In this document: positions 35,800-37,821 of the stretch, piece after piece
How positions within the stretch are numbered: position 1 is the first letter of the stretch
Layout: every line of letters starts with the position of its first letter
DNA from: an uncultured Lachnospiraceae bacterium
Lineage (GTDB): Bacteria; Bacillota; Clostridia; Lachnospirales; Lachnospiraceae
NCBI GenBank assembly: GCA_900314085.1
Contig: OMTX01000120.1
Coordinates: 1-43,648, forward strand
Length of the DNA: 43,648 nt
Reading direction: 5' to 3'
The notes under the pieces: generated by a model
Seen by the model: only the letters and a program-made list of their open reading frames with translations
Database searches by the model: none
What the model was told of the DNA's origin: nothing
Made by a program: the position numbers and the translations under genes

Positions 35800-35867
35800 G
35801 CAGCACTCACCCATCTTGAAGCGGCGCGCGTATCAAATTCCTGCATCTGATGCAGCACTCACCCATC
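35800..35867. repeat. Direct repeat at 52-bp distance next to the permease stop
   Basis: GCAGCACTCACCCATC occurs at 35800-35815 and 35852-35867, exactly 52 bp apart; the second copy reaches the stop codon of the permease gene. On the minus strand the unit also contains TGCAGGAATT, found in the trpC-trpF array as well. Confidence 0.7.
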
Positions 35868-37137
35868 ACGGATGCCAAACGCCCCATACGAAGAGGTAGC
35901 CGACGACAACTGCTGTGAGTGTGAAGGGAATTCCGATGCGGAAGAAGTCGCGGAAGCGGACCTCGTAGCCTTCCTTCCGGAGCATGCCGACAGCGGCGAT
36001 ATTGGCGGAAGCTCCGATGGGCGTCAGGTTGCCGCCGAGCGTTGCCCCGACGAGGAGGCCGAAGTAGAGAAAGTAGGGCTCGACGCCCATAGTCGTTGCG
36101 ACAGCGCCCATCAGGGGAAGCATCGTGGCGACGTAGGGGATATTGTCAATGAAGGCGGAAATCAGGACGGAACCCCAGACGACAATGGAGTAGAGAAGGA
36201 ACATATTTGATCCGCCTGCTGCCGCAATGAGGTTTGCGAGATCATCAATGAGGCCGACATTGCGGATGCCTGCGATGACGACGAAGAGGCCGGCCAGGAG
36301 GAGCATGGTCTGGTAGTCCATATTCTTGAGCGAATGGATCATACCTGACGTGCCCTTCTGCTTCGCGATTTCCCAGACAATAGTGAGTACGCCGAAGGCC
36401 ATGCAGATATAGCCGTTTGTCATTGCCGGCGTATTCGGAATGAAGGAAGCGATGATGAGGGCAACGACGTGGCCGAGCATCGTAATTGTGGGAACGAGGT
36501 CCTTCACTTCCGTGTGCTGGTCAGAGTCGACGGGCTGCTTGTCATTGCGGAAAAGCACCATCATGATGGGAATCGTGGCAAGCGCTCCGAGCTCGACTGC
36601 AAACGTGATGCCGGCCTTCCCGTGGAACCAGATGAAGTCGTTGAAGTTCATGCCTGCGGCGCCGGCCAGCATGATGGACGTCGTGTCGCCGACGAGGGTA
36701 GCCGCCCCCTGCAGGTTCGAGGACACTGCAATGGAAAACAGCATAGGTACAGGCGAAATCTTCAGCTTCTTGCAGATGGCGAGTCCTACGGGGGCGATCA
36801 TGAGGACGGTCGCGACATTGTCAATGAAGGCGGAGACGATGCCGGCGAAGAGGGACATGATGATGGTCACCCACATCACGTTCGGACAGAGCCGCAGGAG
36901 GCCGTCCGCAATCTTTTCCGGCATCTTCGACTCGATGAAGTAGTCGACAATGACCATGGTGCCGAAGATCATGAGCAGGACGTTCCAGTCGATGGCTGTC
37001 GGAACGGCGCTGACCGGAAGCATGCCGGCGGCGACGAAGACCGCCGCTGTGACCAGCGCCACGAGGTAGCGCCACTTGGGCAGGATCACCATCAGGGCAT
37101 ACATGACGATGAAAATGATAATAGCCGCTGTTTTCAT
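35866..37137 (-). CDS. Ion permease of the ArsB/NhaD/SLC13 (ion transporter) superfamily, candidate manganese exporter
   Basis: A 423-residue membrane protein with about 11 hydrophobic segments. Two related re-entrant regions mark the superfamily: GIVSAFIDNVATVLMIAPVG followed by SSNLQGAATLVGDTTSIMLA in the first half, and VLISAFIDNIPYVATMLPLMG followed by GATLGGNLTPIGASANIAAVG in the second. Members exchange arsenite, sodium or organic acids; the substrate cannot be read from the sequence. Its leader is a yybP-ykoY-type manganese riboswitch, which points to Mn2+ efflux or a Mn2+-linked function. No arsenic gene is nearby. The ATG has AAGGAGAG close upstream. It is a single-gene unit. Confidence 0.85.
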   Translation of the reverse strand: MKTAAIIIFIVMYALMVILPKWRYLVALVTAAVFVAAGMLPVSAVPTAIDWNVLLMIFGTMVIVDYFIESKMPEKIADGLLRLCPNVMWVTIIMSLFAGIVSAFIDNVATVLMIAPVGLAICKKLKISPVPMLFSIAVSSNLQGAATLVGDTTSIMLAGAAGMNFNDFIWFHGKAGITFAVELGALATIPIMMVLFRNDKQPVDSDQHTEVKDLVPTITMLGHVVALIIASFIPNTPAMTNGYICMAFGVLTIVWEIAKQKGTSGMIHSLKNMDYQTMLLLAGLFVVIAGIRNVGLIDDLANLIAAAGGSNMFLLYSIVVWGSVLISAFIDNIPYVATMLPLMGAVATTMGVEPYFLYFGLLVGATLGGNLTPIGASANIAAVGMLRKEGYEVRFRDFFRIGIPFTLTAVVVGYLFVWGVWHP

Positions 37138-37163
37138 ACACTCTCCTTTTTGGACGCGAAGAC

Positions 37164-37211
37164 AAAAAAAGACTTTTGCCCCACAAATACAATACGTGCG
37201 GCAAAAGTCTT
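37164..37211 (-). terminator. Regulated terminator of the manganese riboswitch
   Basis: On the minus strand AAGACTTTTGCC (37211-37200) pairs with GGCAAAAGTCTT (37180-37169), followed by T7. It ends about 27 bases before the permease ATG. Its 5' arm is the 3' end of the aptamer, so the two structures are mutually exclusive. Confidence 0.9.
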
Positions 37212-37334
37212 GCGATTTCGTACGAATCCGGACCCGATTGCGGTTGTCGCAATGTGCTGACGACTCCGGACGGCTTCGGGCTTTATATTATTCATGAATA
37301 ATGTGAAACGCGAAGTCCGCTACTCCCTTTTGTG
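37200..37334 (-). promoter_or_regulatory. yybP-ykoY family manganese riboswitch aptamer
   Basis: On the minus strand the leader starts CACAAAAGGGAGTAGCGG (37334-37317) and ends CGCAAGACTTTTGCC. In the middle it has GTCGTCAGCAC, then an ATTGCG/CGCAAT hairpin and CGGGTCCGGA. These match the conserved parts of the yybP-ykoY motif (GGGGAGUAG loop, GUCGUCA loop, GCAAGACCUUU 3' end) in the right order. CAAAAG at the 5' end pairs with CTTTTG at the 3' end to form P1, which would block the terminator. The family binds Mn2+ and usually turns expression on when Mn2+ is high. Confidence 0.88.
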
Positions 37335-37339
37335 TTGTC

Positions 37340-37368
37340 ATCATACCCGAAACACCGGCGAAAGACAA
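37340..37368 (-). promoter_or_regulatory. Promoter of the riboswitch-permease unit
   Basis: On the minus strand TTGTCT (37368-37363) and TATGAT (37345-37340) with 17-bp spacing, placing the transcription start next to the first base of the aptamer. Confidence 0.7.
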
Positions 37369-37388: not shown

Positions 37389-37417
37389 TTGAAAAGACAC
37401 AATTTCTCGGGTATAAT
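37389..37417 (+). promoter_or_regulatory. Promoter of the zinc-ribbon protein gene
   Basis: TTGAAA at 37389-37394 and a perfect TATAAT at 37412-37417, with 17-bp spacing, divergent from the riboswitch promoter. Confidence 0.8.
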
Positions 37418-37476
37418 ACAAAATAACTTTGTGTATCGGTTTAACCGATGTGTTCGTTTTTTTCAGGAGGAATACG

Positions 37477-37821
37477 ATGGACGATTTCTTTGGAAAACTG
37501 GGTGACACGATTGTCTCCGGCGGCAAGGCAGTAGGCGACAAGGCAAAGGAACTTTCCGATGCTGCAAAGATTCAGATCGATATCAAGAAGAACGAGGACA
37601 TCCTGACAGAGGAGTTTGCAAAGATCGGAAAGAAGTACTACGAGGAGCACAAGGATTCCGAGCCGACGGAGTTCCAGACCATTGCAGCAACGGAACGGCA
37701 GATTGCCCATCTGAAGCAGCAGCTTCAGGACATCAAGGGAACGAAGATCTGCCCGGCCTGCGGTGCAGAGAACCCTGCGGATGCTACGTTCTGCAGCAAG
37801 TGCGGCGTCAAGCTCGACTAA
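37477..37821 (+). CDS. Small coiled-coil zinc-ribbon protein, function unknown
   Basis: A 114-residue protein (MDDFFGKLGDTIVSGGKAVG). An amphipathic N-terminal helix is followed by a long charged helix that probably forms a coiled coil (KNEDILTEEFAKIGKKYYEE, TERQIAHLKQQLQDI). The C-terminus is a zinc ribbon with four cysteines in CPACGAENPADATFCSKCG. Similar zinc-ribbon proteins are common in Clostridia without a known function. AGGAGG lies before the ATG at 37477; upstream in-frame residues lack support. It has its own promoter and terminator. Confidence 0.85.
   Translation: MDDFFGKLGDTIVSGGKAVGDKAKELSDAAKIQIDIKKNEDILTEEFAKIGKKYYEEHKDSEPTEFQTIAATERQIAHLKQQLQDIKGTKICPACGAENPADATFCSKCGVKLD

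Follow-up and report, generated by a model that had tools for sequence, protein, structure and literature searches.

In the analysed window, i.e., a 43,648-nucleotide stretch of DNA from an uncultured Lachnospiraceae bacterium (contig OMTX01000120.1), a gene encoding a permease of the IT superfamily is preceded on the minus strand by a leader (37345–37164) with the anatomy of the yybP-ykoY (Mn2+) riboswitch. The elements of the locus are listed below; R1 and R3 are covariance models introduced further on.

37340–37368, minus strand: promoter-like site TTGTCT-17 nt-TATGAT (consensus scan, 9/12, consensus match only)
37199–37335, minus strand: yybP-ykoY-class aptamer (R1, 31.1 bits; R3, 34.8 bits; isolated fold)
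37327–37332, minus strand: 5' strand of the P1.1 switch helix, CAAAAG (pairs with 37207–37202)
37321–37326, minus strand: 5' strand of L1, GGAGUA (alignment of 75 leaders)
37254–37260, minus strand: L3 bulge, UCAGCAC (aligned against the Llac and Xory L3; PMC6754395)
37208–37211, minus strand: 3' strand of L1, AAGA (RAGA in all 75 leaders aligned)
37164–37211, minus strand: intrinsic terminator with the 5' arm AAGACUUUUGCC (full-leader fold)
37143–37148, minus strand: ribosome-binding site AAGGAG (from the sequence)
35866–37137, minus strand: IT-superfamily permease of 423 aa (Pfam CitMHS, 2.8e-57; ArsB/SLC13 fold)

Just 3' of the permease gene (35800–35867, minus strand) lie two copies of GATGGGTGAGTGCTGC, which is found nowhere else in the genome assembly. 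A divergent promoter-like site (11/12) and a terminator-like hairpin (37389–37453, plus strand) precede a gene encoding a zinc-ribbon protein (approximately 37429–37821).

The three conserved blocks on which the sequence-only reading had based its assignment are all present in the minus strand, namely GGGAGTAG at 37327–37320, GTCGTCAGCAC at 37264–37254, followed by a hairpin, and GCAAGACTTTTGCC at 37213–37200. Folded in isolation, the aptamer forms P1.1 (CAAAAG/CUUUUG), P2, P3 with a seven-base bulge, and P3.1. In the minimum-energy fold of the full leader, P1.1 is lost to a 12-bp terminator stem (AAGACUUUUGCC/GGCAAAAGUCUU) followed by a U run (z = -4.1), and the 5' arm of this stem includes the 3' strand of P1.1. 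The aptamer-only and full-leader folds thus make P1.1 and the expression platform mutually exclusive, and the overlap of P1 (CAAAAG/CTTTTG) with a terminator, claimed earlier, is borne out by the bases which P1.1 and the 12-bp stem have in common. Both the aptamer anatomy and this competition come directly from the computed folds, and their mutual exclusion provides the layout of an ON switch, in which the ligand would hold P1.1 and the terminator would be blocked. By-eye inspection revealed a comparable terminator layout after most of the orthologue leaders. As for P4, the window leader has a short possible hairpin (UUCGUACGAA) 5' of P1.2; many of its relatives have no P4, which is often missing also from UPF0016 and MntP leaders in the host phylum. 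It had further been proposed that a promoter sets the transcription start next to the first aptamer base. The position of TTGTCT-17-TATGAT (37368–37340) is indeed compatible with a transcript start at the aptamer, but its identity as a promoter stays at the level of a consensus match.

A search with the Rfam model RF00080, the check put forward by the sequence-only reading and one on which it had staked the assignment, was negative in the window both at the gathering threshold and at E<=10, and none of the Rfam riboswitch families matched within the window. Across 299 genomes of the host's family, RF00080 gave no match above its cut-off and six below it, two of which (G209 and G269) coincide with matches of our model R2 (see below). 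However, the same model also puts a validated manganese switch, the E. coli mntP leader, below its cut-off (41.6 bits against 45 bits). Because of this control and of the zero count in the 299 family genomes, the absent match is weak evidence; it reflects the reach of the model and not a defining biological feature, and after the mntP control RF00080 was set aside as a decisive test for the window, the loci and the genomes alike. The missing Rfam match would suit the reading that the leader is a mere attenuator or terminator which has no ligand pocket and resembles the class by chance. This reading is contradicted by the recurrence, covariation and base conservation described in the following paragraphs, and we regard it as highly improbable.

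Permease homologues were drawn from public genomes, and 94 loci were searched for the leader. R1, a covariance model built from 11 orthologue leaders with the window leader excluded, detects the window leader at 31.1 bits (E=7.5e-5 in 624 kb) and finds the leader at 28 of the 94 loci, the window counted. In a MAFFT alignment of the 11 leaders, 86.7% of cells are paired and 22/29 pairs have changed on both sides; the corresponding values are 89.8% and 25/29 for the 28-leader alignment, which was fitted to the structure from R1 and is hence biased towards it. Among 500 shuffles of the latter alignment none reached the observed covariation score, and none did so for the 11-leader set either. This covariation across the permease leaders is deep and includes P1.1, which covaries in the relatives of the window leader in the 28-leader alignment. 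In a maximum-likelihood phylogeny of the permeases, 26 of 80 rows have the leader, scattered so that 15–17 gains or losses are needed; some of the rows without it appear to lie within operons, and at three loci the available upstream sequence was too short. The link between leader and permease is therefore either old or repeatedly made. The same aptamer does occur before orthologous permeases, as the sequence-only reading would have it, and its occurrences are spread over the permease tree.

The tie to manganese genes was established with two further models. R2, built from the 28 permease leaders, matches 172/299 genomes of the host's family and 129/299 of the host phylum, and finds the E. coli mntP aptamer within the mntP leader (26.4 bits, E=1.6e-5). 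R3 consists of 28 leaders, of which 27 belong to TerC, UPF0016 or MntP genes, including E. coli mntP; its remaining row, a second match in one locus (L221), could not be assigned a target. With R3 the window leader reaches 34.8 bits (E=1.5e-5 in 279 kb) and the 27 other permease leaders 22–71 bits, the lowest being L030 (22.4), in which L3 failed to align. As the members of R3 were gathered with R2, itself derived from permease leaders, this test is partly circular; the kinds of genes that lie 3' of the leaders, and the mntP control, do not depend on that circularity. Like R1, R3 was not trained on the window leader. As for the unpaired bases, L1 GGAGUA and RAGA are invariant in 75/75 aligned leaders and identical across target classes, and the L3 sequences that aligned open with UCA, ACA or, in a single case, CCA and all have adenine as their third base. 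In the window this base is A at 37258, the equivalent of the L3 adenine that contacts Mn2+ in the structures of the L. lactis (A41) and X. oryzae (A48) aptamers (PMC6754395).

By these computations the leader almost certainly belongs to the yybP-ykoY class. The R3 match, the invariant L1, the retained L3 adenine and the recurrence at 28/94 loci make a yybP-ykoY riboswitch controlling an IT-superfamily permease a well-supported reading. The assignment made from the letters alone, a leader of this class before such a permease, is upheld by structure, covariation, orthologue recurrence and the largely independent model R3, and the addition of this permease to the targets of a known riboswitch class is likewise well supported. 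A literature search returned no report of it as a target; one may still exist.

BLASTP was used to group the genes 3' of approximately 175 R2 matches, and these were given names on the basis of their sequences; ten representatives were checked against Pfam. The commonest targets are P-type cation ATPases (71) and CaCA exchangers (32), followed by TerC (17), OadB (13), UPF0016/GDT1 (8), IT permeases (5), LemA (4), SPFH (4), MntP (3), CNNM (3), HtpX (2) and a few others. Over the same leaders we noticed two L3 subtypes, type A (UCA-ACANNCU) and type B (CG-UCANNAC), in a post hoc comparison that counts related sequences and has no held-out set. Type A occurs with MntP (3/3), UPF0016 (8/8) and HtpX (2/2). 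In turn, type B accompanies CaCA (32/32), OadB (13/13) and the sampled permeases (5/5), as well as LemA, SPFH, CNNM, TerC (16/17) and P-type ATPases (60/71). The permease leaders are mostly of type B, unlike those of MntP and UPF0016. Exceptions of type A occur within families: six ATPases, one TerC and the near-identical permease leaders L092 and L097.

This division by target leaves room for different specificities, e.g., Ca2+, and it bears on the possibility that the leader is a yybP-ykoY variant sensing another divalent ion, most plausibly Ca2+, with the permease serving in the homeostasis of that ion. The prevalence of P-type cation ATPases and CaCA exchangers among the targets in the host phylum would fit such a variant, as would the grouping of permeases with CaCA and OadB in type B. 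Breaker's group considers it probable that some yybP variants sense other divalent ions (PMC7266159), and, according to a review passage summarising Martin 2019, the S. pneumoniae mgtA aptamer reportedly binds Ca2+ tighter than Mn2+ (PMC9495176). Yet the L. lactis aptamer that was crystallised in the presence of Mn2+ (PMC6754395) is itself of type B, and so are nearly all TerC leaders; the Mn-sensing adenine is retained, and the swaps of subtype inside gene families argue for a shared ligand. A sensor of another ion appears unlikely to us, and the narrower proposal that type B yybP leaders of these Clostridia, the window leader among them, have shifted to, e.g., Ca2+ and that permeases with DN motifs export that ion appears quite unlikely; if true, the latter would add both a ligand to those of a classic aptamer and a family to the known exporters. 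Mn2+ is the most likely ligand, an assignment that we consider probable.

As for the permease itself, it matches Pfam ArsB as well, more weakly than CitMHS, and thereby stands outside the known Mn2+ exporter families (MntP, TerC, UPF0016 and YoaB-type ATPase). Its scores against the NCBIfam models MamN, DASS, ArsB and NhaD are all below the cut-offs, e.g., 53.9 bits for the arsenite pump, the cut-off of which is 415. The best PDB match of its AlphaFold model (pLDDT 84.6) is ArsB 10tp (TM 0.82). Residues D106, D151 and D331 are invariant or near-invariant in 33 homologues. They are also present in paralogues of about 30% identity, before which no leader was seen; hence, these aspartates single out no manganese carrier, and the idea that they form a family-specific metal site was dropped.

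An alternative is that a Mn2+-sensing switch governs a permease that exports no manganese and moves instead protons, Na+, a carboxylate or a metalloid in a wider response to metal or membrane stress. The nearest solved relatives of the permease are ArsB and DASS carriers, and the regulon holds OadB, flotillin/SPFH, LemA, HtpX and Na/Pi-like genes, which are not known metal exporters. MntP genes are moreover present in 18/23 genomes with the permease switch. Against this stand the 16/23 such genomes in which the R2 match is single, with no second one, and, as regards dicarboxylates, the replacement of the SNT motifs of DASS carriers by DN motifs in the permease, which argues against such a substrate. 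We consider a non-exporting permease a substantial possibility, at somewhat under an even chance.

In the 23 genomes with the permease switch TerC genes are absent (0/23), and MntP generally carries no leader. That the permease stands in for missing exporters is unsupported given the 18/23 genomes with MntP, although TerC is found in none; likewise, the notion that MntP of the same genomes is preceded by the same leader proved generally false, with the exception of one genome (G063). In this Butyrivibrio genome (L322) two leaders are present: MntP is preceded by a type A leader and the permease by a type B leader.

In the preferred reading, the leader is a riboswitch of the yybP-ykoY (Mn2+) class that turns transcription ON. 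At low metal, the terminator would take up the 3' strand of P1.1 and transcription would stop 5' of the permease gene. At high metal, L1 would dock on L3 around the ion and P1.1 would be held, so that the terminator could not form and the permease would be made. The permease would then move the sensed metal or relieve metal stress, export being the simplest reading. Here we infer the ligand, the transported substrate and the direction of transport. As the whole explanation, an ON switch combined with a permease that moves the metal or relieves the stress seems probable. That the permease exports Mn2+ is nearly an even call, and we put it forward tentatively. The suggestion that it constitutes an additional family of Mn2+ exporters is reasonable as a hypothesis but no more than that, given the variety of genes under the control of this leader and the presence of MntP in 18/23 of the genomes with the permease switch.

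If the ligand is Mn2+, a permease of the IT superfamily would join the short list of manganese-controlled carriers as a candidate exporter. The Rfam manganese model overlooks most such leaders in the host's family (0/299 genomes as opposed to 172/299 with R2), and, given how widespread the missed leaders are, databases understate the metal regulon of these Clostridia. The split of L3 subtypes, in turn, offers a handle on whether the yybP aptamers include sensors of ions other than Mn2+.

Several known systems resemble parts of this locus. The Na+-I riboswitch (DUF1646 motif) is likewise located before genes for cation carriers and for oxaloacetate decarboxylase (PMC9337991), and was considered in view of the OadB and Na/Ca exchanger targets; it was rejected, as its two-helix architecture is unlike that of the window leader and no Rfam match was obtained. 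The permease shares with ArsB (10tp) and DASS/SLC13 (VcINDY) the fold, the paired hairpin/loop motifs and an Asn at both hairpin tips. Its identity with ArsB in the structural match is, however, 18%, and the tip Asn residues are preceded by D106 and D331, positions that are aligned with Ala/Asn in ArsB and with Ser in DASS. The leader differs from textbook yybP-ykoY members in the window-type P1.1 (AAAAG/CUUUU instead of AAAGG/CCUUU, a covarying change), in its long P2 and, in many of its relatives as in UPF0016/MntP leaders, in the lack of P4; it differs from the known ones also in being missed by RF00080 and in having an IT-superfamily permease as its target. With the class, including the E. 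coli mntP, L. lactis yoaB and X. oryzae switches, it has in common L1 GGAGUA/RAGA, the seven-base L3 with the sensing adenine, the P1.1 switch helix, P1.2, P2, P3 and P3.1, together with the predicted ON switching by antitermination.
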